The notes beneath the pieces were generated by a model. It ran no database searches. It saw nothing but the letters and a program-made list of their open reading frames with translations, and was not told where the DNA came from. Of a DNA stretch of 50,035 nt, positions 1 through 42,285 are shown piece by piece. The DNA is from a virus: positions 1 through 50,035 of the IMG/VR virus record IMGVR_UViG_3300028844_003046. One strand, given 5' to 3'. The first letter of the stretch is position 1. Each line of letters starts with the position of its first letter. The position numbers were made by a program, and so were the translations under genes.

Positions 1-621
1 GTCAAGTCTGCCGCCAACACCGCCAAGCAGCAGGGCAACTGCCCCGCTGGTATGGAGAGGTTGGTAGGAGATATCTGTGAACCGCAGGTGGACTGGAAGG
101 AGCGCATCAAGTTGGCGCTTCACCGTGTTGCTGGCAAGGACGCATCAACATGGCAACGTCCGAACAGACGACGGCTCGCTATCCCGCCACACATTTACTG
201 GCCGGGAACTGAGTCGTATCAAGTGGGCACTATCGCCATGTTCGTTGATACGTCCGGCTCCGTTAGCGATCAGGAGATGAGTCACTTCTTTGGAGAAATG
301 GCAAGTATCCTCACGGAGTTGGTGCCACAGCGAGCAATGGTTGGGAGCTGCGACACCGAGTGTCATGGGCCGCACGACATTGTTGATGTGAATGAACTTC
401 TTGACTACAAGCCTGAAGGTGGTGGCGGCACACACATGCCAGCGATCTTCGACAGGCTGGAAGAAGTGAATGAGCGTCCTGATGCTCTCATTATCTTGAC
501 TGACAACTATACGGACTATGGCACACCTCCGGGGTATCCTGTGATCTGGGTGTCCACAAGTGATCGTGTAGCAAGTCATGGGGAGACTATTCCCATCAAG
601 GTACACGACTCAAGCTGGTAA
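1..621 (+). CDS. VWA-like (DUF2201-type) protein, C-terminal part, cut at window start
   Basis: The reading frame is open to base 1, so the gene starts upstream and only the last 206 codons are visible. The ATG at 52 is internal. The visible part has a von Willebrand A-like fold pattern: a MIDAS-type DTSGS motif (bases 247-261) after a hydrophobic strand, a GGGGTH segment holding the second metal-site threonine (about 418-435), and a strand ending ILTD. This matches the C-terminal domain of DUF2201 proteins, which in bacteria usually pair with a MoxR-type AAA+ ATPase. Such a partner would lie left of the window. By family knowledge the protein binds a divalent metal and probably remodels a partner. 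Its phage role is unknown. It is the first visible gene of the rightward early operon and is followed by a strong ribosome binding site for the next gene. Confidence 0.75.
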   Translation, partial: VKSAANTAKQQGNCPAGMERLVGDICEPQVDWKERIKLALHRVAGKDASTWQRPNRRRLAIPPHIYWPGTESYQVGTIAMFVDTSGSVSDQEMSHFFGEMASILTELVPQRAMVGSCDTECHGPHDIVDVNELLDYKPEGGGGTHMPAIFDRLEEVNERPDALIILTDNYTDYGTPPGYPVIWVSTSDRVASHGETIPIKVHDSSW

Positions 622-641
622 TAAGGAAAAGGAGAAAGGAA

Positions 642-1388
642 ATGGAGAAAAGAGAAGCTAATCCCCGTCTTGGGATACAAGACAAACGCAATGTGTTTCA
701 GTACCTGTTGGCAATGACTGAACGCCTGTTGATGTTGAACAGGTTTCCAGTTGACCAAGAGGACTTCTCACTATCACTGTTGGCAGAGGAGACAGAGAAC
801 GCATGGAAGGTTTTGTGTCAGAAACCTACTATGAATACTATAAATCCTGCTGCTAGTTTCACATTCACGTGCATGGATAAGGAGTGGAAACTGCACAGGT
901 ATCCGGACGATAAGACCCCCACAAAAGCACCGTACTACGGTCGTATGTTTATCAACATGAACGAGTCACCGGATATTGACGTGGCCCGCCGCCATCAGGG
1001 GTTGGTAAAGGTCTGGTGTCAACGACAAGCACGCCTTGAGGACCAGTGCTTGAGGACAGCAAGGGTATTGAAATACATCGTACATGCTTGCAACACAGTA
1101 GGTCAGTACAAGCGAGTTAGTCCTGATCTCATCACGTTCTTGCCTGAGAAGTATCGTAACGCATTGCAAGACTACACCAAGCAGTCGCCATACCCTGAGA
1201 TAGTAGTAACACCAGATGAAATTGACACGGCGTTATCATCCCTAGCTTTCGCCGCATTACAGAAGGAGCATTACTCAGAAGATAATTACAAGACCAGACC
1301 ATCATGGGGTAATTACGGGTATCATCTTGAACCCTTCCCCCGAAGTGCTAAATACCACGAAGCAAATTACAGAAACCTAGAGCTATAG
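642..1388 (+). CDS. unknown early protein, paralogue A of a tandem pair
   Basis: This 248-residue protein belongs to no family I recognise. It is mainly helical by eye, soluble, with no signal peptide or membrane segment. It is paralogous to the next gene. Both share an N-terminal FPV-x2-(D/E)-(E/D)-F segment and a C-terminal block of the form V-x3-C-x-T-x-GQ-x-KRV...LTFLP-x-Y/K-x-R. The start ATG is preceded by a purine-rich leader, GGAAAAGGAGAAAGGAAATG, that recurs exactly before the paralogue. This copy carries about 35 extra C-terminal residues rich in Tyr, Asn and Pro. Its position just before csrA and the replication genes suggests an early takeover or regulatory role, but this is inference. 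Confidence 0.8.
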   Translation: MEKREANPRLGIQDKRNVFQYLLAMTERLLMLNRFPVDQEDFSLSLLAEETENAWKVLCQKPTMNTINPAASFTFTCMDKEWKLHRYPDDKTPTKAPYYGRMFINMNESPDIDVARRHQGLVKVWCQRQARLEDQCLRTARVLKYIVHACNTVGQYKRVSPDLITFLPEKYRNALQDYTKQSPYPEIVVTPDEIDTALSSLAFAALQKEHYSEDNYKTRPSWGNYGYHLEPFPRSAKYHEANYRNLEL

Positions 1389-1404
1389 GAAAAGGAGAAA
1401 GGAA

Positions 1405-2049
1405 ATGCCAACAATGCGATTGAATGATGAAGAAAAATCAACGATAAGGTCTGCCTTTAATAGAGTGTTGGATCGGTCGCTTAATAACATACCGTTTCCA
1501 GTGACTAAGGATGAATTCGATGAGTTTGCTTATTCACTTCTTGATGACACTACGCGCAGTCATTATGAGTGGCTGCGGGAGAACAAAAAGAAACTCGCCC
1601 AAAGTGCTTGCTGGCACCCATCAATGGAGTTTTTATCTCCTGAAGGAGAGAGGTACACGCTTCAGTTTGGCTCGGATACGTGGCTACCTTACGAAGATAT
1701 CGTGATGGAAGAAACTAACCTCAGGTACGACGAGGTTTGGCAGTGGACAAGACGGTACTGTGAAATATATGACCGAGTAAAGTCTGCGAGTGGTTTCGTT
1801 ACTGATGTTGTTGAACATTGTTGTACGGCGGGTCAAATAAAAAGAGTAATGCAAGACGAAATACTCACGTTCTTACCTACGTACATACGATCAAGTTTCA
1901 ATGATGCAGAGAGACAGTCTCGTTGGCCTTCTAGTCTGCCAAGTGACTGTTGGGATGATCTAAAAACGCTTGCCGACACCTTGGCTCTGGGATCACTTAG
2001 CCCTAAGGATTTACAAGGAACGCAAGTTTCCGCACGTAAATTATCATAA
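1405..2049 (+). CDS. unknown early protein, paralogue B of a tandem pair
   Basis: This 214-residue protein is the second copy of the tandem pair. It keeps the N-terminal IPFPV-x-KDEF motif and the C-terminal block with CCTAGQIKRV and ILTFLP, but overall it has diverged strongly from the first copy. There is no membrane segment, signal peptide or recognisable catalytic motif. Trp and Tyr are frequent in the middle (residues about 85-130). The leader and ribosome binding site duplicate those of the upstream copy, so the duplication seems to have included the translation start region. It is separated from the upstream gene by 16 bases and from csrA by 28 bases. The function is unknown. Confidence 0.8.
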   Translation: MPTMRLNDEEKSTIRSAFNRVLDRSLNNIPFPVTKDEFDEFAYSLLDDTTRSHYEWLRENKKKLAQSACWHPSMEFLSPEGERYTLQFGSDTWLPYEDIVMEETNLRYDEVWQWTRRYCEIYDRVKSASGFVTDVVEHCCTAGQIKRVMQDEILTFLPTYIRSSFNDAERQSRWPSSLPSDCWDDLKTLADTLALGSLSPKDLQGTQVSARKLS

Positions 2050-2077
2050 TTGGACAGAGCCTTAAAGGGAGTATAGT

Positions 2078-2275
2078 ATGCTCATATTAACTAGGAGATT
2101 GGGCGATTCGGTACTGTTGAAGTATCCCGGTGGACAGATCACCGTGACATACCTATCGCAACAAGGTCCTTCAGGCAACGAAGTCAGGATGGGATTCGAT
2201 GCACCGAAGGAAGTCAACATCGTTCGTAGCGAGATACTTGACCGCTACCCCGACGATAATAAAGGAGAAAAGTAA
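2078..2275 (+). CDS. csrA: CsrA-family RNA-binding translational regulator
   Basis: This 65-residue protein matches CsrA/RsmA along its length. The first strand is MLILTRRLGD with the RNA-contacting Leu4, Arg6 and Arg7. The last strand is APKEVNIVRSEI, where Arg50 corresponds to Arg44 of E. coli CsrA. Compared with the usual 61-residue form it has a few extra residues in the loops around residues 15-20 and 28-34. CsrA dimers bind GGA motifs in mRNA leaders and block or stabilise translation, so the phage copy probably reprograms host or phage messages. The ribosome binding site AAAGGGAG lies 6 bases before the ATG. The stop overlaps the next start (TAATG), so the two genes are translationally coupled. 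Confidence 0.93.
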   Translation: MLILTRRLGDSVLLKYPGGQITVTYLSQQGPSGNEVRMGFDAPKEVNIVRSEILDRYPDDNKGEK

Positions 2276-2832
2276 TGTCGAAAGACACCAAGGCATATGC
2301 CACAAAACTGCTCGACCGTCTGATCGAGTTGGACTATCAGACCGTTGAAGCGTACTACGACATGGGCAGCATCATTTCGTCCATGCAACACGGCAAGCTG
2401 TACCAAATTCTTGAGTACAGTTCCATGACCCACTTAGTCGAAGAAGAACTTACGTACACCCCGTCAACAGCGTTCAAGTACGGCCAGATGTATCGTCATT
2501 TCCGGCGGCTCAAATACCTCAAGCACGAAGCCATTGAACTCCTCAAGAAGTTCGGCCTCACGCATATGTGCGAGGTATTGCCAAAGATGAAAGACAAGAT
2601 TGGTCAACGTGCTATCAAGAAACGTATCGACGCTATTGACGACCACCAGATCAACTTCACGCTGACTCAAGCGCAACTCGACAAGACCCACGATGCTCTC
2701 AAGAAGATGGGAGCAATGCAGGGTGATGGTGGGCGTTGGCTTAACTCGTCCGAAGCGTTCATGCACATGGTCAACAACATCAATACCATGGACATTGAGA
2801 AGGAAGCTGCGAAGCTGCGAGTGGTGAAGTAA
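2275..2832 (+). CDS. unknown helical early protein coupled to csrA
   Basis: This 185-residue protein begins at the ATG overlapping the csrA stop (TAATG), with AAAGGAGAAAAGTA as ribosome binding site. It is rich in Lys, Leu and Ile and looks all-helical. The middle (about residues 60-125) has a basic segment with alternating Arg/Lys such as MYRHFRRLKYLKHEA and IGQRAIKKRID, which could contact nucleic acid. No catalytic motif or membrane segment is visible. Tight coupling to csrA suggests expression in fixed ratio, but no functional link can be shown from sequence. I do not recognise the family. Confidence 0.8.
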   Translation: MSKDTKAYATKLLDRLIELDYQTVEAYYDMGSIISSMQHGKLYQILEYSSMTHLVEEELTYTPSTAFKYGQMYRHFRRLKYLKHEAIELLKKFGLTHMCEVLPKMKDKIGQRAIKKRIDAIDDHQINFTLTQAQLDKTHDALKKMGAMQGDGGRWLNSSEAFMHMVNNINTMDIEKEAAKLRVVK

Positions 2833-3135
2833 ATGACATGGAGTACCCCGGCTGCGGTGGCCCCTACACCGGTAACCTACGAAGCGGTTTACTTTTTGGT
2901 CCTTGAACGTGAGCAAGTAGTTCTTCACAGCGACGAACTAAAATCTTGGAGTGGGCCGATGGAGTGGGGTGGCAACCTTGATAGTTTCATGGGCACCAAG
3001 GCCGAAGGTACTCCATTCATTCCTGTGGACCCACATACCGCACTTTCCTTGGGGTGGTTATCTTCGATACGAATGGCTAACAACATGCCATATCTTGACG
3101 AGAGTATTAGGGCAGCAATCGCGCTAGTAACATGA
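2833..3135 (+). CDS. unknown small early protein
   Basis: This 100-residue protein's ATG follows the previous stop directly (TAAATG). No strong Shine-Dalgarno sequence is visible, so it probably depends on translational coupling. An N-terminal strand-like stretch (YEAVYFLVLEREQVVLHSDE) is followed by a Gly/Trp-rich segment and a short helix. No known domain is recognised. It sits between the csrA-coupled gene and the small gene preceding DNA polymerase. Confidence 0.65.
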   Translation: MTWSTPAAVAPTPVTYEAVYFLVLEREQVVLHSDELKSWSGPMEWGGNLDSFMGTKAEGTPFIPVDPHTALSLGWLSSIRMANNMPYLDESIRAAIALVT

Positions 3136-3144
3136 AGGAGAAGG

Positions 3145-3354
3145 ATGATGGCAATGACCAAGAAGGACTACGTGCTGGTAGCAAGTGCTATCAAAGCACA
3201 GAAGGAACGTATGCACGCTGAGTTTCGTATCGAAGCGAAAGCGATGAATGATTTTGCTGAGACAATGGCAGCACACTTTGCCTTGACGAATGACAACTTT
3301 AATAAAGACATATTCTTAGAGGCAGCAGGGCATGGCGAAGATAGTAACGCTTGA
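3145..3354 (+). CDS. small conserved-type phage protein before DNA polymerase
   Basis: This protein of up to 69 residues starts with a cluster of Met codons (3145, 3148, 3154). GGAG at 3137-3140 favours 3148 and AAGG at 3141-3144 favours 3154, so the exact start is uncertain. The MTKKDYVLVASAI beginning and a helical body with AMNDFAETMAAHFALTNDNF resemble many very small phage early proteins that precede replication genes. The function is unknown. Its last 23 bases overlap the start of the DNA polymerase gene, implying coupled translation. Confidence 0.7.
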   Translation: MMAMTKKDYVLVASAIKAQKERMHAEFRIEAKAMNDFAETMAAHFALTNDNFNKDIFLEAAGHGEDSNA

Positions 3355-5176
3355 TTTCGAGACATACTATGAAAAGAAAGGCTACACGCTTACTGAACTC
3401 ACTACTCAGCAGTACGTACAGTCTCCGCTTTTTCAGATCATTGGTGTGGCTGCGAGTGTCAATGGCGGTGAACCTACGTGGCACTCATCTGAGAGTAACG
3501 AAGATACCAAAAAGTTTCTCGCGTCGTATGAGTTGGACAAGAGGGGTACGATCACAGTCGCCCATAACGCCATATTCGATGGAGGAATACTTGAGTGGCA
3601 ACTGGGGATAAAACCTTGGATGTACTTCTGCACCATGATGGGGAGCCGCCCTACCGTCGCACCGTACACAGGCCGAATGTCATTAAAGGAAGTCAGCAAG
3701 TTCTTGGACCTAGGTCTTAAAGGAACCGAGGTGCAGGCAGTCGCCAACATGCGATTGCGTGACTTCGATGCTGACAGTTTGTTGAGGTATGCTGCGTACT
3801 GTATCCAAGACGTAGACTTGTGTTGGAAGATATTCAAGAAGCTGGCAGCAACAATGCCTGCTGACGAAATGCGGATACTTGACGGGACCATTAAGAAGTT
3901 CACTCGTCCCAAGCTACAACTTGATCCAGATATTATTGACGATGCATTAGCTGAAGAACAGGCAGCTAAGGCCAAAGCACTTGCCAAGGCAGGGCTTGAA
4001 GATCCTTCCCCCCTTATGAGCAACCCGAAGTTCGCTGATCTTCTTAAGAACGCGGGTGCCAATGTTCCAATGAAGCAATCCCCAACCACCGGGAAAACGA
4101 CCCATGCGTTCGCAAAGTCTGACCCCGAGTTCATGAGACTATTACATTCACCTACCCCCCAAGTGAGGCACCTTGTAGATGCCCGACTTAAATTCAAATC
4201 AACCATCAACGAAACCCGACTTAAGCGTTTCAAAGAAGTGGCGGCAAGTACCCCTGAGAAGTGGTTGGCGTGTCCGATACTTTACTATGGTGCGCACCCG
4301 GGACGCTTTAGTGGATTGGATAAACTTAACCTGCAAAACCTTGGCAGGAAGTCTGCGCTGCGTCGTGCAATTGTTGCACCGAAAGGCTACAAGGTATTGG
4401 CAGGTGACCTTTCGCAAATTGAGGCTCGTATCACCGCTTGCCTTGCGGGTCAAATGGATCTGGTCGAGTTATTCAGGTATTACGACAATATTGAAGCGAC
4501 AGACCGTGACGTTTATTGCGAGTTTGGAGACAAGGTATACGCTCGAAAGATCACTAAAGAAGATGAAAAAGAGAGATTCGTCGCTAAGACGGGAGTCCTC
4601 TCACTCGGCTACCAGTCGGGCGCTCAAAAATTCTATGACTCTATGCAAAGTTTTGGTGTTGAAGACTTTAGCCTCTATGATGCGCAAGCTGTTGTTGAAA
4701 CTTACCGGTCCTCGTACCCGCACATAACTGCCCTGTGGCAACGTATGGAGTATGTTATTGAGTGCATGAAGTCAGGACAGGGGTTTGACCTCGGCCCATG
4801 TCAAGTACTGCTTGGCCACATCTGTCTGCCTAATGACATGTTCCTAACGTACCCAGAGCTAACAACTACTGGCAGACGAACCAAATATAGATTCGGTACG
4901 GAGTGGCGCGATCTGTATGGCGGCAAGCTGACGGAGAATGTTGTCCAAGCACTTGCCCGTATAGTCATGACAACAGCAGAACTACGACTCGCCAAGGCAG
5001 GTCTTAGAGCAGCATTAAGTGTCCACGATGAACTTGTGTTCGTCGTTCCAGAAGAACACGTTAACGCCGCAAGATCTGCAGTGCGAAAAGCATTAACAGC
5101 CCCGGTGCCTTGGATGCCGGAACTTCCAGTCAATTGCGAGATAGGAGTTGGTGACAATTATGGCGACGCAAAGTGA
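3332..5176 (+). CDS. family A DNA polymerase with 3'-5' exonuclease
   Basis: This 614-residue replicative polymerase is of the T7/PolA type and shorter than T7 gp5 (about 704). The N-terminal DnaQ-like exonuclease is intact: Exo I D8FE10T, Exo II HN-x3-D83, Exo III Y156-x3-D160. In the polymerase domain, motif A is D359LSQIEAR, the O-helix/motif B spans about 415-430 with R415, K419 and Y427 in LGYQSG, and motif C is VHDE with D566. It should replicate the phage genome with proofreading. The start ATG lies inside the previous gene, with AGAGG 9 bases upstream. No thioredoxin-binding loop can be judged by eye. It is followed by nuclease and helicase genes in the same operon. Confidence 0.96.
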   Translation: MAKIVTLDFETYYEKKGYTLTELTTQQYVQSPLFQIIGVAASVNGGEPTWHSSESNEDTKKFLASYELDKRGTITVAHNAIFDGGILEWQLGIKPWMYFCTMMGSRPTVAPYTGRMSLKEVSKFLDLGLKGTEVQAVANMRLRDFDADSLLRYAAYCIQDVDLCWKIFKKLAATMPADEMRILDGTIKKFTRPKLQLDPDIIDDALAEEQAAKAKALAKAGLEDPSPLMSNPKFADLLKNAGANVPMKQSPTTGKTTHAFAKSDPEFMRLLHSPTPQVRHLVDARLKFKSTINETRLKRFKEVAASTPEKWLACPILYYGAHPGRFSGLDKLNLQNLGRKSALRRAIVAPKGYKVLAGDLSQIEARITACLAGQMDLVELFRYYDNIEATDRDVYCEFGDKVYARKITKEDEKERFVAKTGVLSLGYQSGAQKFYDSMQSFGVEDFSLYDAQAVVETYRSSYPHITALWQRMEYVIECMKSGQGFDLGPCQVLLGHICLPNDMFLTYPELTTTGRRTKYRFGTEWRDLYGGKLTENVVQALARIVMTTAELRLAKAGLRAALSVHDELVFVVPEEHVNAARSAVRKALTAPVPWMPELPVNCEIGVGDNYGDAK

Positions 5177-5378
5177 CCTTTTTGAGAAAACTGAAGATGC
5201 TCTCCTTGCCGAGAGATTGATGAAAACACCCATAAAAGACCAAATTCAGGGCCAATACCGGACACCAGAGCAGTATGTAAACAGTTTGTTGGTGGCCGAG
5301 ATGCTAACAGGGTACGTAGGCGCTCGCGCAGTCATTGAATTCTGCGTCACCACGTTGGAGCGCAACAGTGGTAACTAA
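5160..5378 (+). CDS. unknown small protein within the replication module
   Basis: This 72-residue protein begins MATQSDLFEKTEDALLAER and overlaps the polymerase 3' end by 17 bases. The ATG at 5160 lies 12 bases after AGGAG. Upstream in-frame GTG 5151 and TTG 5148 are possible alternative starts but sit too close to AGGAG. It is acidic at the N-terminus and helical, with no recognised domain. It overlaps the next nuclease gene by 11 bases. Placement suggests a small accessory factor of replication or recombination; this is inference only. Confidence 0.65.
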   Translation: MATQSDLFEKTEDALLAERLMKTPIKDQIQGQYRTPEQYVNSLLVAEMLTGYVGARAVIEFCVTTLERNSGN

Positions 5379-6045
5379 GAAAGGCAAGCAAACCGCATGG
5401 TCGTTCAGCAGACTCAATGCCTTTGAGAACTGCCCGAAAAAGTTCTGGCATGAATCTGTCCGCAAGGACGTACCGTTTGAAGAATCAGAGGCGATGCGCT
5501 ATGGCAAACTTGTTCACAAAGCATTGGAACTCCGAGTTGGTAAAGCTAAACCGCTACCCCTCAATCTCAGACACCTTGAGAAGTATGCAAAGCTTCTCGC
5601 AGACGCAAACGGCAACAAACTTACAGAGCAGCAGCTTGCAATCGACAGCAGCTTCGAGCCGTGCGATTGGTTTTCCAAAGAAACATGGTGTCGTGCTATT
5701 ATTGACTTAGCAATAGTCAACGGCAGCGACGCAGTTGTCTTCGACTATAAGACAGGGAAAATCAGCAGCGATTTCACTCAGCTCAAGTTAGCTGGTGTAT
5801 TGCTGATGCTACACATGCCCGAGATTAAAACTGTTGATCTCGCGTACTTGTGGACAAAGGAAAAAAAGATAACGCGGCATGACAGCAAGCTGACTCGTGA
5901 AGACATTAAGACTGTTGTCACGGAGTTCATGCCACGTCTGCGTAAGTACGAGAGGGCACACCGGACAGAGTCATTTCCGGCTAGGCCCGGGTTTCTCTGC
6001 AAGAACTGGTGTCCAGTAAAGAAATGCCCACATCACGGAGAATAA
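5368..6045 (+). CDS. PD-(D/E)XK nuclease, RecB/Cas4-like, probable Fe-S cluster
   Basis: This 225-residue protein starts at GTG 5368, with GGAG 7 bases upstream and overlapping the previous gene. It has RecB-family nuclease motifs: an N-terminal FSRLNAFENCPKKF element, GKLVH (H50), IIDLA (D113) and the core D126-Y-K128-T-G. One cysteine near the N-terminus (C22) plus three at the C-terminus (C211, C215, C220) reproduce the Cas4/AddB arrangement that binds a 4Fe-4S cluster. By family it should degrade or process DNA ends as an exonuclease. In T7-like replication modules such a protein takes the place of the gp6 exonuclease in recombination and host DNA breakdown. Confidence 0.88.
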   Translation: MVTKKGKQTAWSFSRLNAFENCPKKFWHESVRKDVPFEESEAMRYGKLVHKALELRVGKAKPLPLNLRHLEKYAKLLADANGNKLTEQQLAIDSSFEPCDWFSKETWCRAIIDLAIVNGSDAVVFDYKTGKISSDFTQLKLAGVLLMLHMPEIKTVDLAYLWTKEKKITRHDSKLTREDIKTVVTEFMPRLRKYERAHRTESFPARPGFLCKNWCPVKKCPHHGE

Positions 6046-6046
6046 A

Positions 6047-6337
6047 ATGGCCCTTACCCCTGAAGGACGAGTCAAGCGGCGTGTCTCTCAAATACTCAAA
6101 CGTGCTGATAACTGCTACTACTTCATGCCAGTACAGACGGGCTACGGCTCACCGACGCTGGACTATCTTGGTACTCATAGGGGTCGTGGTTTTGCTATTG
6201 AGACCAAGGCTCCGGGGAAGAAGCCAACAATGCGTCAAAAAGCAATCATCGCTGAAATGGAACGAGCAAAAATGAAAGTGTTCGTTATTGCCGGGAACCC
6301 GGAAGAATACGAGGAGCTAAGACTTTGGCTGTTTTAA
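6047..6337 (+). CDS. VRR-NUC domain nuclease
   Basis: This 96-residue single-domain protein fits the VRR-NUC family (virus-type replication-repair nuclease). The pattern is E6 in the first helix, a G-x-G-S-P-T-L-D39 turn, the core E52-T-K54, and a downstream Q64. Full-length phage VRR-NUC proteins are of this size and act as structure-specific nucleases, possibly resolving branched DNA like T7 gp3. The start ATG follows the upstream stop by one base, with CGGAG just before. The C-terminus overlaps the helicase start by 13 bases. Confidence 0.88.
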   Translation: MALTPEGRVKRRVSQILKRADNCYYFMPVQTGYGSPTLDYLGTHRGRGFAIETKAPGKKPTMRQKAIIAEMERAKMKVFVIAGNPEEYEELRLWLF

Positions 6338-7875
6338 TATCAGCGAAGCATGACGCCATCGTCATACCCTACAGGAAGGATGTCCACAATCTCCTGCCAT
6401 CATCGCTAAGATTTAGTCACAACACTAAATCTTTTCTCAAGATTACCTACGGGATCGAAGAAGTGCGTCTCCTCAACAACTTGGGGATAGAGACGCCTGC
6501 ACCGATTCGCAACAAATACAACTGGCCCGGGATGCTCCCATTTGAATCCCAGATGGAGACCGCCGCACTGCTCACGACCTCCAAGCGTGCATACGTGCTT
6601 TCTTCTATGGGAGTGGGCAAAACCCGGGCCGCTTTATTCTCATTCGATTTCCTTCTACAGCAAGGTGCTGTGAAGAACTGTCTTGTGGTGGCTCCCCTAA
6701 GTACTTTGGTGCCTGTCTGGGAGGTGGAAACCTTTGAAACTTTCCATCACCTGTCCGTTGGTGTTATGCATGGCACCAAAGATAAAAGGCTCAAGGTGCT
6801 AGGGGAAGACCACCACATCTACGTTATCAACCACGATGGTCTCAAGACAATTAATAAAGAACTCATTGCCAAGAAGTTCGATTGTGTGATCCTCGATGAG
6901 TTGGCTATCTACCGCAACCGTCGCACCGACAGATGGAAAGCGGCCAAACCCCTAGTTCACAACGCTGTGTATGCATGGGGGTTAACAGGAGCACCTACCC
7001 CGAACGGCCCAACAGATGCGTATGGTCAGGTCAAGCTCCTGACACCATCCCGTATGAATATGTCATTCAGGGCTTTCCAGCAACAGACCATGAAACAGGT
7101 CAGCCAGTTCAGGTGGGTGCCTCGCCCTGAAGCTAACGACATCGTCCATGAGGCGATGCAACCGTCAGTCCGGTTCGCACTAGAGGACTGCCACGATCTA
7201 CCGCCTGTCACACTGTCAGCAAGGGACGTGACGTTATCAGCGCGACAGAAGAAGGCCTACAAACAGTTGATGAACGAATATGCGATGGAATCTAAAAAGG
7301 CGGGGGTTATTACAGTCGTTAATGAAGCTGCTCGGCTCAACAAGCTCATACAGGTGGGAGCTGGATTCGCGTATACCAAAGAAGGCAAGGGTGAGTATCT
7401 CGATGCCAAAAGGCGACTCACGGCCACTCTGGATCTTGTCCGAGAAGCCGAAGGCAAAGTTATTGTGTTTGCATCATACAAGTGGGCTGTCGCTATGCTG
7501 GAACGTGTTTTGGGGCATATTGGGACTCCACTGGCAATCACCGGAGCTACCCCGTCCGCCGAACGCAACAAGAACATCGCACTATTTCGAGGAAGTAACG
7601 CTCACCAAATTCTTGTCGCTCATCCCGGCTGCATGGCCCACGGTGTCAACCTACAGTGCGCCTCTACTATTATCTGGTATACGCCGACGCATAGTCTTGA
7701 AACGTACATGCAAGCTAATGCTCGTATTACTAGACCGGGGCAGAAACAGCACATGAATATCATCCATCTCACCGCCACGCCTGTTGAAAAGCGCATATTC
7801 AAGAAGCTGGCGAAAAACGAGAAAATTCTTGGCGTGCTATTAGAGATGTTCAAGAACCAAGAAATAGGTATATAA
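6325..7875 (+). CDS. SNF2-type superfamily 2 helicase/translocase
   Basis: This 516-residue protein has SF2 motifs in order. Walker A is MGVGKT (95-100), followed by motif Ia VVAPLSTLVPVW. The DExx box is DELA (191-194) and motif III is LTGAPTPN (220-227). A RecA2 domain carries VIVFASYKWAV (about 379-389), and motif VI is QANARITRPGQ (463-473), which is SNF2-like. It should use ATP to translocate on duplex DNA, probably in replication or recombination. The start is TTG 6325, with GAGGAG 8 bases upstream, inside the VRR-NUC gene. No Met codon with a better site is seen near the N-terminus. Nuclease plus SNF2 pairs are common in phage replication modules. Confidence 0.92.
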   Translation: MAVLISAKHDAIVIPYRKDVHNLLPSSLRFSHNTKSFLKITYGIEEVRLLNNLGIETPAPIRNKYNWPGMLPFESQMETAALLTTSKRAYVLSSMGVGKTRAALFSFDFLLQQGAVKNCLVVAPLSTLVPVWEVETFETFHHLSVGVMHGTKDKRLKVLGEDHHIYVINHDGLKTINKELIAKKFDCVILDELAIYRNRRTDRWKAAKPLVHNAVYAWGLTGAPTPNGPTDAYGQVKLLTPSRMNMSFRAFQQQTMKQVSQFRWVPRPEANDIVHEAMQPSVRFALEDCHDLPPVTLSARDVTLSARQKKAYKQLMNEYAMESKKAGVITVVNEAARLNKLIQVGAGFAYTKEGKGEYLDAKRRLTATLDLVREAEGKVIVFASYKWAVAMLERVLGHIGTPLAITGATPSAERNKNIALFRGSNAHQILVAHPGCMAHGVNLQCASTIIWYTPTHSLETYMQANARITRPGQKQHMNIIHLTATPVEKRIFKKLAKNEKILGVLLEMFKNQEIGI

Positions 7876-7876
7876 T
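7849..7876 (+). promoter_or_regulatory. possible weak promoter before 7915 gene
   Basis: An exact TATAAT hexamer lies at 7871-7876, with a poor -35 candidate (TTCAAG, 7849-7854) 16 bases upstream. It lies at the end of the helicase gene, 38 bases before the next start. This is weak evidence. It could boost the following gene and the SSB gene. Confidence 0.28.
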
Positions 7877-7914
7877 GCGCATGTTAAAATCTGAAAAAAC
7901 CATAGGAGAAGGAT

Positions 7915-8301
7915 ATGGGTCACCCAACCGTTGACGAAGTTGTGAAGGGATTCATCAAGCTGCGGGACCGCAAAACCCAGCTAAAGAAAGAGCAAGCCGA
8001 CGAGCTGCGGCCAATCACTGAGAAAATGACGCTGCTCGAAAACTGGCTGCAACGAGAGCTTATGAAGCAAGGCGTTGACAGCATGAAGACGAAGGAAGGT
8101 ACTGCTTTCACGTCTACTGTCTCTGCTGCTACAGTGAAGGACCGCGATGCGTTCTTCGATTTCGTGAGAGAGAAAGAAATGTGGGACCTGTTAGAGAACA
8201 GGTGCTCCAAACAAGTGGTGCGTGACTACCTTGAGGAAACAGGTGAGGTAGTCCCGGGCGTTAACTATCAAGAGACCAAAGTGGTCAGGATAAGGAGATA
8301 A
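7915..8301 (+). CDS. small phage protein upstream of SSB, unknown function
   Basis: This 128-residue protein has an N-terminal charged helix or coiled coil (about residues 8-50, many Lys/Glu/Leu), a conserved-looking KTKEGTAFTS strand, and a C-terminal segment with PGVNYQETKVVRIRR. This layout resembles a common small phage protein found beside single-stranded DNA-binding proteins, but I cannot name a family. AGGAGAAGG gives a strong ribosome binding site. It ends two bases before the SSB-like gene, so the two are probably expressed together and may cooperate in replication. Confidence 0.78.
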   Translation: MGHPTVDEVVKGFIKLRDRKTQLKKEQADELRPITEKMTLLENWLQRELMKQGVDSMKTKEGTAFTSTVSAATVKDRDAFFDFVREKEMWDLLENRCSKQVVRDYLEETGEVVPGVNYQETKVVRIRR

Positions 8302-8303
8302 CA

Positions 8304-9263
8304 ATGGGCGAAGTTGCTCAGTTCCAAGGCGGCAAGGTGCCTCAAAAACTTGCAGAAAGAATGTCTGCGAACAACGAAGACTTATCGAGTGGTGTACGTG
8401 GTGGATACAGTGTTGTCTCCATTAAAGGATCACGTTGGCATGTGAAGGTGGGCGATGAAACTACTACGATTACAGACCCAAGTTCTGGGGACCCTGTTGG
8501 ATCGCTTCGACTCGTACTGCTCAAAGCGTCTCCCAATGTCAGTAAGAACTTCTATGAAGGAGGCTATGAAGAAGGAGCTAACGAGGCTCCATCATGCTGG
8601 TCTATCGACGGCGTGGTGCCCGACCCAGCAGCAGATAAACAGGCAAAGAGCTGTGCGGGTTGTCCCAAGAACCAGTTTGGCTCTCGCATTACGGATGCTG
8701 GCAAGAAAGTGAAGGCATGTAGTGATAGTCGCAGGCTTGCTGTCATCCCCGAGGGTGATTTCGCCAACGAGGTTTATGGTGGTCCCATGTTGTTGAGAGT
8801 ACCGGCCAGTAGCCTGAGTAATCTTTCTCAGTTCGGAAAGAAGATGAAGAACAAGGGCTTCCCTTACAACACCATCGTTACGCGGGCCAGCTTTGATATC
8901 TCTGTCAGCTTTCCCAAGATTGAGTTCAATGCTGTCCGGCCACTGACCGACGACGAGGCAGACGAGATTGTTGGCCTGCTTAACAACCCTGAGTTCGCTG
9001 ACAAGATCGAAGCAGTTCTTGCCAAGGACTTGGAGGTAGTGCCCATGTCAGACGAGGCTGATGATGAAGACGATGCACCCCTCTTTGAAGAACCCCCCGA
9101 GGACAAGCCGAAAGCTGCTGCCAAAGCACCGGCCAAAGCCCCTGCTAAACCCAAGCAGAAAGCCGAGCCGAAAGAAGAAAAGGTAGAAGAAGAAGACGAG
9201 TCCGACGACGAGCTTGACGACGAGCTTGAGAATATTCTCGGGTCACTCGACAACCTTGATTGA
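8304..9263 (+). CDS. single-stranded DNA-binding-like protein with zinc-like cysteines and acidic tail
   Basis: In this 319-residue protein the middle (about 30-235) looks like a beta-rich domain with a CAGCPKNQ...KACSDSRR cysteine set that could bind zinc. From residue about 245 it turns into an Ala/Pro/Lys linker followed by a strongly acidic C-terminus ending in DDELDDELENILGSLDNLD. An acidic tail after a flexible linker is the hallmark of SSB proteins such as T7 gp2.5 and T4 gp32, which use it to recruit replisome partners. The Zn-like cysteines parallel gp32. Location between helicase and primase-helicase supports the role. The SSB call is inference from architecture, not from a recognised signature. 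Confidence 0.7.
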   Translation: MGEVAQFQGGKVPQKLAERMSANNEDLSSGVRGGYSVVSIKGSRWHVKVGDETTTITDPSSGDPVGSLRLVLLKASPNVSKNFYEGGYEEGANEAPSCWSIDGVVPDPAADKQAKSCAGCPKNQFGSRITDAGKKVKACSDSRRLAVIPEGDFANEVYGGPMLLRVPASSLSNLSQFGKKMKNKGFPYNTIVTRASFDISVSFPKIEFNAVRPLTDDEADEIVGLLNNPEFADKIEAVLAKDLEVVPMSDEADDEDDAPLFEEPPEDKPKAAAKAPAKAPAKPKQKAEPKEEKVEEEDESDDELDDELENILGSLDNLD

Positions 9264-9278
9264 TTGTACTAATCTGGT

Positions 9279-9307
9279 GGGCCACGGTAGATGGACTGCC
9301 GTGGCCC
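9279..9307 (+). terminator. perfect 9-bp stem-loop between SSB-like and primase-helicase genes
   Basis: GGGCCACGG (9279-9287) and CCGTGGCCC (9299-9307) form a perfect GC-rich stem with an 11-base loop. No T-run follows; instead the ribosome binding site of the next gene begins 5 bases later. It may cause pausing or partial termination, or be an RNA-processing or stabilising hairpin that sets the ratio of SSB to primase-helicase. Confidence 0.6.
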
Positions 9308-9326
9308 TCGACGGAGAATGAGGCGA

Positions 9327-12098
9327 ATGGATGCCAAAGAATTCCTGCAACGAATACTACCTCAACATGGCAACTACTACGGTGCCGTTACTGGAAATAA
9401 CAGATTCAGTCAGCACAAACTACGAGACATCGACGCACTCGTATCATATGCAGATCGACTCAAGGCAAAGAGATGCGACCTGTACTTTGCGACTGGCAGC
9501 TTTGGCAGCCAGCGTACCGCAGACGAGTGTCAAAAAAAGCGGGCACTATATCTTGATATCGACTGCGGAGTGGGAAAGCTATATCAAGATAAGAAGGCTG
9601 CTATCACAGAACTTTTCAGTTTCTGTAAGGCCACCGGCTTCGCACGACCGAACATTCTAGTAGATAGTGGAGGAGGGATTCATGCCTACTGGACATTTAC
9701 GAATGAAGTATCCACTGAAGCATGGCTCCCGATGGCGACAGCACTTAAAGACCTGTGTGAGTTGCACGGGTTCGGAGCAGACCCCACCGTCACAGCCGAC
9801 GCCGCCCGTATCCTCAGAATCCCCGGGACATACAACCAAAAAGAAAACACGCCCCGCGAAGTAAAAATAATCCATGCATCAACCAAGGAATATAGTCCAA
9901 GCAAGCTGGGAAAACTTCTTGGCTCGACTCGATCACATTCCTTACAAACTCTCGGGGCTATGGCTTCGGAGAACGATGTTGCTTTCGAGGTTTCATCAGG
10001 AAAACCGTTCTTCGCAAACAAAATCTTGGAACGGTGCCATGTCCTTAAACATACTTATGAAACGGGCGGAGCCGACCAAGTGGAACCACTTTGGATGGCT
10101 CAACTTTCACTTATGGCATATGCGGCTGATGGTAGCGAGTATATACACGCTCTATCAGATCAACATGCGGACTATGATTACCGCCGCACGGAGAAGAAAT
10201 ACAATGCTCGCGTTCGTGTCAAGGACTCGGGCAAGTTTGGTCCGCCGCTGTGTAAAACTCTGGGTATGTATCTCCCCGACAAATGCAATTCTTGTCGATG
10301 GTCTGGGAAAATCAAGAGTCCGATTGTTCTGGGGCGCGAGGAAGATGGTTCTGAAATACCATTTCCGTACAAGCAAGATGATAAAGCCATTTATCGACTG
10401 GAGAAAAAGGAACTAGAAGATGGTCAGACTCAAGAGAAAGCTGTTAAGGTTTTGTCATTTGCTATTGAGAACTTCCAAGTATTCTCGTCGCCTGATCCTT
10501 CGGCGGGAATGGTATTCAGATTTTCTGTCGATGCGTACGGTTCGCGTGTCGTCACATTCACTACGAAGCACCTATGTGACAAGCGGATGCTCGTCGTCGA
10601 ACTCTCAAACGCAGACGTTCCCCTTCACTCACATGAATACCCCGGATTCGTTCAGCTCATGACAACGTGGGCAGACAAGATGGTGCAAGCTAAACAGGTA
10701 GGTAAGCCCACTGTTGCACTCGGTTGGAGTAAAGAGAAAGATGAAATTGCCTTCACCCTTATTGACCGTACGATCACTGAGGGCTCGGGGGATAAGGAAG
10801 TTACATTCCTTGACCGCGAGTTTGTTAAGGACTTCACTCCTCAGGGTGGCAGGGAGGCTTGGATTAAGCTCGCACAGTATCTTACTGCTGAAAACAGACA
10901 CGCCGTTACAGCGGGAATATTGTCGGCATTTGCTGCGCCGCTTATCACCTTCACAGGAGTGAACGGTTGTGTTCTTGCACTTGTGTCTGATAAGTCTGGT
11001 ACTGGCAAGTCCACTGCTTTACGCACAGCTCAGGCAGTCTGGGGTGATCCCCGGCGAGGGGTCAACGCGCTTGATGATACTCCTCTGTCTGTGGCCAATC
11101 GTATGGGCAAGCTTAATAATCTCCCAGCTTTTTGGGATGAACTAAGAATGAAAGATCAGGTCGAAAAATTCGTCCTGCTTATGTTCCAAGTGAGTCAGGG
11201 CAAAGAACGCTCACGACTCAAGTCCAACATTACCACGCAACACGTGGGCACTTGGAATACACTGATTACCGTGGCCTCGAATGAGTCCATCACAGATCAC
11301 GTACGTCATCTGGTACACGGAACGGATGCAGGGCTGCTTCGTGTGTTTGAGGTCACGGTTCCTTACTTGCAACGAGCCAAGGACATTGATGCTATGTCCT
11401 CTGCTCTTGATAAGAACTTCGGTCACATTGGTGGTGAGTACGCACGGTGGTTAGTAACCAATCACAAAACTGCACTCGCTCTGTTGGGAAAAGTGAAGGA
11501 CAAGTTCAGCTCCCGAGTTCATGCCGATTCTGCTGAACGGTTCTGGGTTGCTACTTGCAGTGCGCTACTCACCGCCGCCATCGTCACCAATAAGCTAGGC
11601 TTCACCGCTATTGACATTGACCAGTTCACAAGCTGGCTCGTTAAGGAGTTCCTTCGTAGTCGTTCGGAACAGACCATGGACTTTGATCCCATTGAGATCC
11701 GTGCCAAGAAGTATCTCTTTCAGTTCTTAGACATCCACAAAGATCAGCTCGTAGTGTTCGATCGTTTATCAGGTAGGGGTGTAGCATCAGTGGGCACCCT
11801 GCACTCGCCACTACCGAAGGGTGAGATACTAGGTGTCTACGCCAAAGAGGACAACAAGGTGAGGATAAAGAAGATGCCGTTTGTTCAGTGGGTGTACGAG
11901 CACCATAAGGAACCGCACACTCGGATGGTTGAGGCTCTTGTGAAGCAGAACTGTATCGAACGTAGAGCATCAGTATCCGTTGGTGTTGCTAACGCAGTGC
12001 AGTCGAGAGATGCGGTGATTGATATACCTCTGGACGACCCTACGTTTAGCGACGTTCTCGATCGTATTGACGCTGACGCCCTCTCCGACGAGACCTGA
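9327..12098 (+). CDS. primase-helicase (AEP-type primase plus P-loop helicase)
   Basis: This protein is 923 residues from ATG 9327, which has GGAG 10 bases upstream. ATG 9318 and an upstream ATG at 9291 are in frame but badly spaced or inside the hairpin. The N-terminal half has archaeo-eukaryotic primase signatures: LYLDID (D77, D79), SGGGIHAYW (H119) and an ARILRIPGTYN segment. A CNSC pair near 320-323 may bind zinc with C309. The C-terminal half has Walker A SDKSGTGKST (554-563) and Walker B-like FWDE (602-605), as in DUF927-type phage helicases. It should prime and unwind DNA for the polymerase. Its last 53 bases overlap the 3' end of the opposite-strand giant virion gene. Confidence 0.9.
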   Translation: MDAKEFLQRILPQHGNYYGAVTGNNRFSQHKLRDIDALVSYADRLKAKRCDLYFATGSFGSQRTADECQKKRALYLDIDCGVGKLYQDKKAAITELFSFCKATGFARPNILVDSGGGIHAYWTFTNEVSTEAWLPMATALKDLCELHGFGADPTVTADAARILRIPGTYNQKENTPREVKIIHASTKEYSPSKLGKLLGSTRSHSLQTLGAMASENDVAFEVSSGKPFFANKILERCHVLKHTYETGGADQVEPLWMAQLSLMAYAADGSEYIHALSDQHADYDYRRTEKKYNARVRVKDSGKFGPPLCKTLGMYLPDKCNSCRWSGKIKSPIVLGREEDGSEIPFPYKQDDKAIYRLEKKELEDGQTQEKAVKVLSFAIENFQVFSSPDPSAGMVFRFSVDAYGSRVVTFTTKHLCDKRMLVVELSNADVPLHSHEYPGFVQLMTTWADKMVQAKQVGKPTVALGWSKEKDEIAFTLIDRTITEGSGDKEVTFLDREFVKDFTPQGGREAWIKLAQYLTAENRHAVTAGILSAFAAPLITFTGVNGCVLALVSDKSGTGKSTALRTAQAVWGDPRRGVNALDDTPLSVANRMGKLNNLPAFWDELRMKDQVEKFVLLMFQVSQGKERSRLKSNITTQHVGTWNTLITVASNESITDHVRHLVHGTDAGLLRVFEVTVPYLQRAKDIDAMSSALDKNFGHIGGEYARWLVTNHKTALALLGKVKDKFSSRVHADSAERFWVATCSALLTAAIVTNKLGFTAIDIDQFTSWLVKEFLRSRSEQTMDFDPIEIRAKKYLFQFLDIHKDQLVVFDRLSGRGVASVGTLHSPLPKGEILGVYAKEDNKVRIKKMPFVQWVYEHHKEPHTRMVEALVKQNCIERRASVSVGVANAVQSRDAVIDIPLDDPTFSDVLDRIDADALSDET

Positions 12099-15000
12099 GA
12101 CGAGCTACGTCCCCCCTACTAATCCAATCGCTCCGCTTTTCAAGAGAGCGATTGAACTTTTGGATGTCTTCCCACACTTCTGCTTTTTCTTTAGCAGTCT
12201 CGGCAGCAAGAGCCAGAGCAACAAGGTTGCTCTTTCTTGTACTGCGCCGCTGTTCTCTGGCCATTAGGTTGTATTCATAGTCGGTAGTCATAGCTATACC
12301 AGTGGGGCGGAACCCCATTGCTGAACGAATCCAACCCGTTACATCTTCAGGTTCAATGAATGTCAGAGTGTCAGTTCCGACTCCTTCCATTTCATACTTC
12401 AACCCTCGAATCGCACCCCGCGCTGCTTTCAACGGTATTGCTGCCGCCGCAAAGTCATACCAGTTACCTCTTGGATCTCCTTTCCACAGGCGCGAACCTT
12501 CTCTTACCGTTGTTATGCCGTATTGAGCAACCGGCCCCAACGCTGTTGTCATCATTGTCTCTACACCCCCAGCGTCACTAAGATTGATACGGTCATTGCC
12601 CATCCATATCAAGTTACCGAGGTTGATAGATTTGCTCATGTCAACACCAAGTGCTGCAGGCACGCCGCGTGATGCTAGTGCTGCCACCGTGTCGTTAGCA
12701 ACATCCTGCAAGTACAACTCCACAGCTTCTTCAGGATCAAACTCATCTCCTGCTTCACGGAACGCTTGGTTAAATGCCCACACCAATGCTTGTACTGGGG
12801 CCATCATTAAACCACCCGCCACACCGCCGAAAACTGTATGCGTAGTAATCAAACCACCCGCCAGCTTCAGTGCCTCAACACGGCCACCTTTCTTGATAGC
12901 AACATCCATCATCGACCCATAGAGCAGCCGAGTCAGCCCAATGCCGTAGGACTTGAACATCATCATTGGTGTAATGATTGCTCGTAGCCCACCACCAGCC
13001 CATTTGGGGGCAGCCTTTAACAATCTCGCACGGTTAGCAGAGTCATAGTTGAACTGCGTCGCCTGCACACCGTCAGCTATTGCTTGCATGTCACCGTTCG
13101 ACAAGTAGTGGATAGCCAGCGCCGTGCTGATACGGTTGTACTTTTCAACACCTTCAGGAATAGTCTCCATGAGCTTGAGAGCAGTAGCCGTAGCCTTACC
13201 TACTGGGCCCGCCCACTCTTGTATTGATGTCAAAGTACTTGGCGTCATGATGTCACCGAACTGGTGAGCAATCGTTGACTGAATAATCCCTTGGGCTTCC
13301 AGATCAGCTACTACTTTCTGCGCAGCAGGGGGCAAGTTCTGTTTGAATTGGTCGTAGCTCTTTGCACCCTTGGCTGCCTTCAGTATGGTCCCAGCCGCTT
13401 GCATGTACGCAGCCGTGCCTTTCGCTCCCCACTTGGACCCAATGTACGGCAGTGTGACAGTGAGCGTCTGGGTAGCATTGAGCACCCAGTACGAGGGAGC
13501 GCCGAGGAAGTTGAAGAACCCGATAAGGCCAACGCCCTTCTGGAACTTACTCATCTCCCGATCCTTAGCGTCCTCTCTGTTCTGCGCAGCGAGTTCGTTA
13601 ACAACGTCACCAACCAGCAGTGCTTCGTCTTCAGTGATGCCTCCTTGTTGCAAGGCATCCTGCATACCTTTTGACTGTAGCTGTTTCAGATCTTTAAGGG
13701 CTTGGTGTACTTCATAAGAAGTAGCAAGGTCACCCAGTGTGTACTTGGTGACAAACACATACTCCTCAAAGGCACGCCCCATGTCATCAGCAGCAACACC
13801 ATCAATACCCATACGCTTCAACTGACTAGCGTATGCTGTGTTGTCTGCCATAATCTCAATCATCGCTGCTTGTAAACGCTTAGACATGTGATCTGATATG
13901 CCGTCTTTCCTTCTACCCATGCGTCCCGCAAGCTCAGCCGTCACCGACTCCACATCACGAGGGATCGACATTGATTCGATCTTTTTAGTGACGTATGTAG
14001 AAATCCCCAGCTTGTCTTCAAGTGCTGCAGCAACACGCTGGGCTTCCTTGCGTGTGTGATGGAATGATACGTATGGCTCACCATCTTCGTTATGCTCGTC
14101 GGTGCTTGACACTACGTACTTACCATAGCGACGTAATGGGAAGTATGGTCCCTTAACAGATGTACCCTTAATAATTTCTTCGGCGGTCTTCGCTATTGCA
14201 CGTCGTTCCTTCCACTCTTTCAGTTTTTCTTTCTTCTCCTCCTTAACTTCTTTGCTGTCTTTTTTATCAATGATGGTGTCAGCGGGGCGCGCACCATCCT
14301 CTACCAGATTGCCCTCGGTGTCATACATACCCGGGAACAGCTTCTGGATATCCTCTTTGCTTTCTACTTTGCCGAGTTGCTTAACAAGAGTAGAGTCAAT
14401 CTCGTACGTCTTGCCAACAGTACGCAGGGCTTCTATTCGTTTTCTATCCTGTATCTCCCTAGTCAGCATTGCCATTTCAATAAGTAGCTGTGCTGCCTCA
14501 GGGTTTGTTTTGTTCAGTGCCACCCAGTCTTTGCGGGCTTGCTTTGCAGCCTCACCCAGTAAAGTGCTTAGTTTACTCACGCCCTTCTTGTCGGGCTTGG
14601 ACCACAAGTGCTTGTTCTCTTTGGCACGGAGGCTGACGTGTGGCCACACCTGTGCAAGCGTGGTGTCAGCCATCAATTCAAGTACCTTAGCGCGTGACTT
14701 ATTATCCAACTTCTGCAGCTTCTTAAGTGCTGCTGTTGCTCGTACAGCAAATTCTTCTGCTAGCTGAGAAGCAGCTTGTTTCGCTTTGATGTATTGAGTC
14801 AGCGGGCTGAACGCATGTCCTGCTGCTTTAGCAGCCCGTCCAAACAACTCGCGGTAGTTACGCTCAATGACATCACGATTCATAAAGCCAAGGTTAATAG
14901 CACGGGGGAGGTTCTTTAGGCCATCGGCCAGTGTTTCAACTGCTTGCTTAACTTTACTATCACGTGCACGTGCAGCATCAGCCGTTCTGTTGACGACGTT

Positions 15001-18000
15001 CGTACGGACCTTCTTGTCAGGGATATCCTCCTGTGACAAGAACGGCTCCGCATACCCCTTCATCTTGTTCCCTTTACGAGTAATACTTTCGGCGTCAGCT
15101 TGAGTGGTGAACATCTGTTCAGTCCAGAACATCACTTCAAGCAACACTGAATTTCTTGGTGAGATGCCAAGGAACTTAGCAACTGCACCGATCAACACGG
15201 CAATAGCTGACGGGAACTTCTTACCTTGTTTGATCTGTGAACGCACAGAGGGGAGAAGTGTAGGAGCGTCTTCTACCTTCATGTTCCCTAAGAACTCTTG
15301 GAAGTATGGTTTGGTAAATGCCTCTGCCAAGAACTCCACAGGATTACTTAGGCCATAATATATAAAGCCAAGCCCTTGGCCTTTCTCCGCACCCCTATCT
15401 TTTTCTTTCATCCACAGAGTTATTTCATCAAACAGTTGTTTGTGCGCTGGTTCTCCCAAGGCTGACAAGTTGTTAGCCATCTCAATATATTTTTGTGCTG
15501 GGAAATCGGGGTGCATTTTCTGGAACTCAAGCAACGATTGCTTGTACAGCGTATTGATGTGCTGTTGAAAAGGTTTGTCAGTAGCGTATGCAAAGGTAGT
15601 AGCTGCGTGCACCATCTCATGCAAGACCGTGCGAACAAACGCTTCATCATGCCTAAGGTCTGTGTTGTATACGGCGGTAATTTTAGCATTAGCCGGATCA
15701 ATTCTATTTGTTTCTTTGTTGATGGGGTTGTACCCACCCATCTCCATAAAACCGTTTTCATTTATGAACGGCGAATCCTTCAACTGTATGGTTACACCAG
15801 TGAGGTTGAGCTTCATCAACATTCTTGAGAGGTGGGCGTACCTATGGTTTGAAGGTAACGCAGAGACAAACAGCTCAAGTATCTCCTGCATACTCGCCGT
15901 TGGTGTGTCAGGCCAGATGTCACTCGCCCGATTGTCCCTCTCAACCAGCGTCTCAATCTCAATGCGAATCTTATCCATCGCCTGCTTAAGAATGCGACGG
16001 TCCTGTTTGACTCGTGCACGCTTAGCACCGGTGAGGCTGGGATGAATGTCGTTGATAATATCGCGTAGGCGGCTGGCCCAGCTTACACCGAACTCGTCCA
16101 CTGTTGTCGTTTCAACGTCAATCTCTGGGTCAATAGCGCCGGTCATCCGAGCTATTTCAAGCTCATCCTCTGACATTGAAGAAGCAATGTCGTCCTCGAA
16201 TGACTTTTGTTCTGCTTCTATCTCAGCAAGACGCGCATCTCTACGCTCACTGATTTCAAGAGCAAACTCTGCGATCGTGTCATACACTTCAGGACTGACA
16301 CGTTTACCAACAATTTCAGTAATGTCTGATACCAGACGAATTGGGTCGGGAGTTCTAACGTGCCGGTATGCAGCCTCTACTATCTGGTCACGCTGTTCAG
16401 ATGAAACCGCCTTCATAATGCCACGGAGTTTTTTCACTGACGCTTTACTTACACCAATTTTCTCCAGTGCACGATCAAGCGCGCCTTGTCCCGGCTCTAC
16501 TCCGGCTGTTTCGGCAAGAGTTGCAGATTCTCTACCCACAATATTTTGTGGTTCTGGATCAAATATTTCTTCGGGTTTAACGTCAGGTTTTTTGGCTGCT
16601 TTTTTAGGCTTCTTCGCAGCTGTGCCTTTCGCTGCCACTCTCTTACCACCAACATAAACAGGGAGGCCAGTCTTACCCAGCTCTGCTATCTCCGCTTTAG
16701 TTAATGAGTCAGCGACAATAGCGACAGGCTTCATGCCCCCCGTTGCTACTCCATCATTTTGGTAGTCTTTAAGTGTGTACTCGTTCTTCTTATCAGCGAA
16801 CACAAGTACAACGTTACCAACGTCTCCGAGTACAGTGGCGGCTTGGCCCACCAAGTCAACAGATATGTTGGTGCCTTTCTTCAGCCCGTTCTTAACGATA
16901 CCTGCAACGTCAGCTATCTTACGAACAGCATGGTAGACATGTCCCTTCTGTAATTTCTTCGGGACATTCTTTTTGACCTCGGCAAGTATCTCTGCATTTT
17001 CTTCCGCGACCCCCTTTGCTATAGCTTCGGAATCAATACGACTCGCTTCATCAAAGACCGCTACTGCTAGCTCCGCTTGCTTGAGCTTATAAACCCCCTT
17101 CATCCCCAACGTTTTAGCTATGGCTCGTAGCTGGGTAACCGTGCCATAAGCAATGTCAACGCCACCGATGTACCCCCTAATAAGTCTACTCAACTTACGT
17201 GGGTCTGGGTTGTCTTCTATCAGCTTTCCGACTTCTGCCCTTCGCTCTTTATCGAAAGCGATCTTTTCTTTACGCTGTTCAGGCGATAGCTTGCCTTCTT
17301 CAGTAGGCGAAGGCTCAAGCATAGACTTTACATCCATACCTCCTTTCACGGCTTTCTGTGCAGCCGCTGCCTTGGCCTCAGAAGTTTCTGTTTTTGGCTT
17401 CGCAGGAGCCTCTGTAACGGGCGAACTCGCCTCGGGCTTAGCCTTACCCTTGGCTTTTTTGGCCTTATCTCCCCTTGCTTCGGCCTCTGCAAGCAGTGGC
17501 GTTACCTTCTCAGCAATGTCCCTGAGGTTGTTTGCCAGCTCAAGCAGAGTGCTAGCATTAAAACTAATTGTCTTTGTCTTGCCACCACCTTTTGTCTTTT
17601 TCTCAACAGGGGCTTGAGCCGCATCAGCTGCTCGGTCAGCCAATTCCATCGTCTTGCCATAGTTAGCGCCGATGCCTGCTTCTTCAAGTACACCAGCTTC
17701 TTCGGCTGCCTTGAGCAGCGCACGAACAGCTCCGGACAACTCGCCCAGTTTGTTCGCCATATTAATCTTGGTGCCTTTGAGTACATCTTTACCCTTGGTT
17801 AGCTTCCCCTTGCCTACAGTCTTAGCCTTTTCATAGAAGGCCATGAAGTTGTTGTACTCGGCTTGCACTTGCCCAGCAATGGAGTCGATAGGGGCATCAG
17901 TAAGAGAAGGTATAGTTCCCTGAACATGAGAAGTGAGTCGGTCAAGGGTTTGTATTACCTCTGCGGTCTTGCCTTCGGCAATACCATCAAGAAGTTTTTT

Positions 18001-42206: not shown

Positions 42207-42207
42207 G

Positions 42208-42248
42208 TCCGCAATAAGTTGCTAGTATGCGGAATATCGTTTATAAAC
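42208..42248. promoter_or_regulatory. dyad and palindrome in the divergent promoter region
   Basis: TCCGCA (42208-42213) and TGCGGA (42228-42233) form a 6-bp inverted repeat with centres 20 bases apart, two helical turns. GTTTATAAAC (42239-42248) is a 10-base palindrome over the plus-strand -10. Together they could be an operator for a phage or host regulator controlling both directions. Confidence 0.4.
42219..42247 (+). promoter_or_regulatory. sigma70-like promoter for the rightward adhesin island
   Basis: TTGCTA (42219-42224), a 17-base spacer and TATAAA (42242-42247) form a good sigma70-type element, 39 bases before the ParB-like gene. It overlaps the leftward promoter, so the two may compete. 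Confidence 0.55.
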
Positions 42249-42261
42249 AAGCTCGTGTCAA
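42233..42261 (-). promoter_or_regulatory. sigma70-like promoter for the leftward portal/virion operon
   Basis: On the minus strand, a perfect -35 TTGACA (42261-42256) lies 17 bases from GATATT (42238-42233), 4 of 6 matches to the -10. It would start RNA about 20 bases before the portal ATG. Confidence 0.5.
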
Positions 42262-42285
42262 CAGTAATGGCAAGGATTTGCTGAG

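Follow-up and report, generated by a model that had tools for sequence, protein, structure and literature searches.

What does a phage gain from a gene for a CsrA-type RNA-binding protein, and on whose messages would such a protein act? The question is raised by a small gene in a 50,035-nucleotide stretch of viral DNA (IMG/VR record IMGVR_UViG_3300028844_003046, positions 1 to 50,035), hereafter called the window, which is an incomplete phage genome lacking about 13.7 kb relative to IMG/VR contig G001. The original prediction placed a csrA gene at positions 2078–2275, and an ATG-initiated open reading frame lies exactly there, downstream of a ribosome-binding site.

2064–2083, + strand: csrA ribosome-binding site, AAAGGGAG
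2078–2275, + strand: csrA-like gene, 65 aa, CsrA/RsmA/RsmE family (Pfam, PHROG and PDB matches, AlphaFold2/Foldseek)

The encoded protein, MLILTRRLGDSVLLKYPGGQITVTYLSQQGPSGNEVRMGFDAPKEVNIVRSEILDRYPDDNKGEK, matches the Pfam CsrA profile PF02599 over positions 1–50 of 53 with 55.1 bits (E=7.5e-15; curated cut-off 27 bits), and PHROG 9500, described as "CsrA-like regulator" (E=1.6e-13). E. coli CsrA, RsmA and RsmE were retrieved from the PDB by phmmer at E-values of 4e-9 to 6e-7. These sequence matches confirm the product as a member of the CsrA/RsmA/RsmE family, and the gene is the only one in the whole record to match CsrA.

Residues known in the family as RNA-contact or core positions are matched by L2, L4, R6, R7, R37, A42, P43, I48, R50 and E52. 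They include Leu4, Arg6, Arg7 and Arg50, singled out as RNA contacts when the gene was first noticed. In an alignment of 43 homologues the contact and core residues are retained: R6, P43 and R50 are invariant, L4 (42/43), A42 (41/43) and E52 (42/43) nearly so, and I48 and R37 correspond to the usual V/I and R/K states. The contact residues of strands beta1 (L4, R6/R7) and beta5 (V/I42 and R44 in the family, I48 and R50 here) are thus all kept, and E52 is the residue that forms a salt bridge with R6 in the CsrA family. R50 aligns with Arg44 of E. coli CsrA and RsmA, which is essential for RNA binding by RsmA; mutation of its equivalent in RsmN lowers affinity more than 1000-fold (PMC3791407).

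A full CsrA fold had also been proposed. The monomer predicted by AlphaFold2 (pLDDT 85.3, input alignment of 36 sequences) resembles RsmE in the RsmZ/RsmE complex 2mfc, the best Foldseek match in the PDB (E=2e-3, probability 1.00, TM 0.70/0.77, rmsd 1.7, 41% identity); all other Foldseek matches are poor. Strands beta1 and beta5 are unpaired in the predicted monomer, as expected for a CsrA-family protein modelled as a single chain. Two loops are indeed longer than usual in the alignment, each by 3 residues: the beta2-beta3 loop measures 8 residues instead of 5, the beta3-beta4 loop 11 instead of 8. The first extension is found also in homologue L095, in a Xanthomonas phage (L162) and in a Vibrio phage (L164); the second is shared with G001 only and is absent from the other 41 homologues. 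Judging from known structures, both loops would be remote from the beta1/beta5 surface reported to contact RNA, and for this reason the suggested effect of the loops on RNA specificity seems unlikely.

The protein is like E. coli CsrA (1Y00) and RsmE (2JPP/2MFC) in its whole domain, its contact residues and the predicted beta2-beta4 core and helix. It differs from bacterial CsrA, RsmA and RsmE in the two 3-residue loop insertions, in having V49 in place of H43, and in a short acidic tail. It resembles RsmN/RsmF of P. aeruginosa in its key arginine and in having extra residues inserted between beta2 and beta3 (PMC3791407). Membership of the RsmN/RsmF subfamily was considered and rejected, as it calls for a helical insertion of about 16 residues, which goes with a rearranged dimer, whereas the 3 extra residues found here are predicted to form a longer turn. 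In a tree of 44 CsrA members, in which few columns could be used and 5 of 41 branches are supported, the protein pairs with that of G001; its origin beyond this pairing is not resolved.

Far larger insertions were met among the viral sequences surveyed. A 128-aa open reading frame in L101 (frame about 1000–1365), found also in L102, L103 and L104, corresponds to a CsrA with some 60 residues between beta2 and beta3, and its two halves match PF02599 separately (positions 1–19 and 29–51). The 16-residue insertion of RsmN is the only precedent known to us. A csrA protein from a "Halobacteria archaeon" MAG proved identical to that of an Ectothiorhodospiraceae MAG (L108/L109), which probably denotes a mis-binned contig.

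The gene resides in a six-gene accessory cassette, bordered by a VWA/metallopeptidase gene and by polA.

52–621, + strand: VWA-like/metallopeptidase gene (DUF2201), bounding the cassette on the left
642–1388, + strand: cassette gene, 248 aa, no assigned function, no Pfam or PHROG match; distant paralogue of 1405–2049
1405–2049, + strand: cassette gene, 214 aa, no assigned function
2275–2832, + strand: gene 3' of csrA, 185 aa, no assigned function
2833–3135, + strand: cassette gene, 100 aa, no assigned function
3145–3354, + strand: cassette gene, 69 aa, no assigned function
3332–5176, + strand: DNA polymerase A, bounding the cassette on the right

Genes 642 and 1405 are tandem distant paralogues (blastp E=1e-10, 31% identity over 85 aa); their purine leaders are nearly identical despite the strong divergence of the proteins. 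The csrA stop codon overlaps the ATG of gene 2275 (TAATG), an arrangement which suggests that the two genes are likely to be translationally coupled. A search for relatives of gene 2275 found none outside the window and G001, in which the only copy adjoins csrA.

The cassette belongs to a co-directional run of genes which includes VWA/DUF2201, polA, a RecB-like exonuclease, VRR-NUC, a SNF2 helicase and DUF927; the exonuclease and VRR-NUC names are transferred from the matching genes of Rhizobium phage RHph_TM3_14A, the nearest relative among isolates (46% identity in the portal protein, 36.5% in PolA). Virion genes lie farther along the window, mostly on the opposite strand. Of the early, replication-side operon proposed for csrA, the co-directional replication neighbours stand; the early timing is inferred from gene content only. 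The gene is genuinely phage-borne and does not lie in bacterial flanks: polA, SNF2, DUF927, portal and virion genes surround it, the record belongs to IMG/VR, and synteny is kept in a second phage contig. A search for a plasmid origin gave no match. Elsewhere in the window, a protein of 2834 aa is encoded at 12046–20550 (− strand); it has a lytic transglycosylase (SLT) domain at its N terminus and is probably an injected virion protein.

About 80 related viral contigs (L014–L093) have the polA-exonuclease-SNF2-DUF927 core in common. The core including the VWA and VRR-NUC genes (window 52–12098) is conserved over these contigs, and the cargo genes that sit between VWA and polA vary. Genes 642, 1405, csrA, 2275, 2833 and 3145 occur together only in the window and G001, and a CsrA profile search of 50 related records matched G001 alone. 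Since the cassette is restricted to this pair among the contigs sharing the core, csrA counts as cargo of the variable region next to polA.

A comparison of csrA in the window with its G001 counterpart gives pN 0.18 and pS 0.51, with dN/dS about 0.23; the gene is under purifying selection, as measured on this one pair. The CsrA proteins of the two phages are about 75–77% identical, the same level as in the replication core, against only 35–49% for the products of cassette genes 642, 1405 and 2833. Synonymous change is lower in csrA (0.51) and gene 2275 (0.55) than in the neighbouring genes, where it is about 0.71 (binomial test, p about 0.004 for csrA and about 0.0001 for gene 2275). Part of the reduction falls in a 30-nt run of identity at the junction of the two genes.

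2228–2267, + strand: csrA 3' end and Shine-Dalgarno sequence of gene 2275; 30-nt run identical to G001, one mismatch, then identical ATAAAGGAGAAAA

The identical runs at the csrA junctions (30 and 28 nt) were evaluated as cases of exceptional nucleotide conservation, a view set aside as runs of up to 71 nt occur elsewhere in the pair; as a sign of special constraint they are at most suggestive. The longer runs are at 11250–11320 (71 nt) and at 42204–42266 (63 nt, covering the portal gene start and a divergent intergenic region), in genomes whose synonymous sites elsewhere differ by about 70%.

Profile match, contact residues, predicted fold and purifying selection together make identification as a CsrA-family RNA-binding protein well supported, and to this extent the original prediction holds; the action on host or phage messages that it also envisaged is plausible and fits published work on phage CsrA. 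Our preferred reading, which we consider probable, is that the gene, accessory cargo of an uncharacterised tailed phage, encodes a genuine post-transcriptional regulator of the CsrA/RsmA family which acts on GGA leaders mainly in host mRNAs. The protein would be expressed together with the replication genes and form the interlocked dimer of the family. With residues L4, R6/R7, I48 and R50 of beta1 and beta5 it would recognise A(N)GGA sites in the leaders of mRNAs, and would then block or change the translation and stability of certain messages. Host mRNAs already under Csr control, in metabolism, motility or defence (cas, for example), would most likely be the main targets, and mRNAs of the cassette itself might form a second set. 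Two points weigh against a firm reading. Only two phages have this version of csrA, so conservation is judged from a single pair; and a larger beta2-beta3 insertion alters dimer architecture in RsmN (PMC3791407), a point to be kept in mind given that both loops are unusually long here.

The alternative that survives best, though we hold it unlikely, assigns phage messages as the main targets: CsrA would bind the leaders of genes 642 and 1405 as well as the Shine-Dalgarno sequences of csrA and gene 2275; it would thereby time or limit early expression and regulate itself.

625–640, + strand: triple-GGA purine leader of gene 642, GGAAAAGGAGAAAGGA; candidate CsrA site or plain strong Shine-Dalgarno sequence
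1377–1404, + strand: leader of gene 1405 with three GGAs; its 28 nt are the same in G001, although synonymous divergence is about 70%

The motif GGAAAAGGAGAAAGGAAATG precedes both cassette genes, 642 and 1405. In the window two of the cassette genes have a leader of the form GGAAAAGGAGAAAGGA(A)ATG; one has it in G001, where a near-identical leader also precedes an unrelated gene of 144 aa. No copy with up to 2 mismatches was found before start codons in 706 kb of relatives lacking csrA (n=79). Across IMG/VR the 20-nt form is matched only by G001 and by the coding region of one unrelated contig without csrA. Leaders with at least two GGAs number 30/111 in the phages with csrA and 157/896 in relatives without it (Fisher p=0.02), so that the GGA load is only mildly higher in the csrA-bearing pair. 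Three GGAs in 16 nt overlapping a Shine-Dalgarno sequence could be used by a CsrA-type repressor, but make equally well a strong purine-rich ribosome-binding site. The motif, moreover, was picked after viewing the window, and the leader counts are not independent. Csr sites usually require spacing and structure, and among predicted leader folds no stable hairpin presenting the GGAs was found, the energies being unremarkable. As targets on the phage's own mRNAs the triple-GGA leaders are therefore a suggestive lead.

Autoregulation could involve a predicted small hairpin, GAGUAU-AGU-AUGCUC (2069–2083), also formed in G001, which would pair the end of the Shine-Dalgarno sequence with the csrA start codon; it is suggestive at most, since overall fold z-scores are not significant. 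That the phage has a self-contained Csr regulon, in which CsrA controls the cassette via lineage-specific triple-GGA leaders and itself via this hairpin, we regard as quite doubtful. If true, a bacterial Csr switch would have been turned by the phage onto its own early gene programme.

Slightly more doubtful still is the idea that the protein shifts the Csr balance of the host, either by titrating sRNAs of the CsrB/RsmZ type or by forming mixed dimers with host CsrA. The contact residues would permit sRNA binding, the host Csr pathway is under sRNA control (PMC7652899), and phage csrA genes correlate with host csrA (PMC8450108). Against this, counteraction of sponge RNAs, part of the original prediction, found no direct support: Rfam searches of the window for CsrB/RsmZ-type RNAs gave chance-level matches only, and an identity of about 37–51% to cellular CsrA makes heterodimers uncertain. 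That csrA is a recently captured, functionally idle passenger, as its occurrence in only 2 of the roughly 80 replication-core relatives might suggest, is very improbable, since dN/dS of about 0.23 at pS 0.51 shows that it has been kept by selection over a long divergence, and its contact residues are invariant.

The preferred reading, a regulator directed mainly at host mRNAs, is in line with what is known of other phages. Genes for csrA were reported in 30 of 2,517 phages (Sobrero and Valverde 2020, PMC7366521); Campa et al. (2021) found many in GenBank and IMG/VR and proposed an anti-CRISPR role; RsmA represses three CRISPR-Cas types and is encoded by phages (PMC8450108). The phage collection matched with E. 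coli CsrA in this study yielded 88 records. Phage CsrA/RsmA proteins include the RsmM type of Pseudomonas phages such as F116 and phi297, and those of Vibrio, Xanthomonas and Providencia phages (PHROG 9500/5527). The window protein is like them in small size, in location in the early or replication-side region of a tailed phage, and in contact residues (PMC7366521, PMC8450108). It differs in belonging to another lineage, in its identity of at most about 53% to any CsrA of an isolated phage, and in the 3 additional residues of the beta3-beta4 loop. A role has been measured for the csrA-family gene PTXU04_00028 of Escherichia phage PTXU04, the silencing of which by CRISPRi-ART results in smaller plaques (PMC11879866). 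In contrast to the gene described here, PTXU04_00028 is of another phage lineage and appears to be a very divergent family member, as judged from Pondi (29% identity). Pondi belongs to the same phage genus as PTXU04.

With csrA already documented in many phages, the present case is a further, moderately diverged example, accompanied by weakly supported hints of targets on its own mRNAs. It adds a lineage, the relatives of Rhizobium phage RHph_TM3_14A, in which csrA is sometimes present and sometimes absent, as part of a defined cassette next to polA. Targets of phage CsrA proteins are in general almost untested, and the leaders described here are concrete candidates, which make the question of host versus own mRNAs directly testable.
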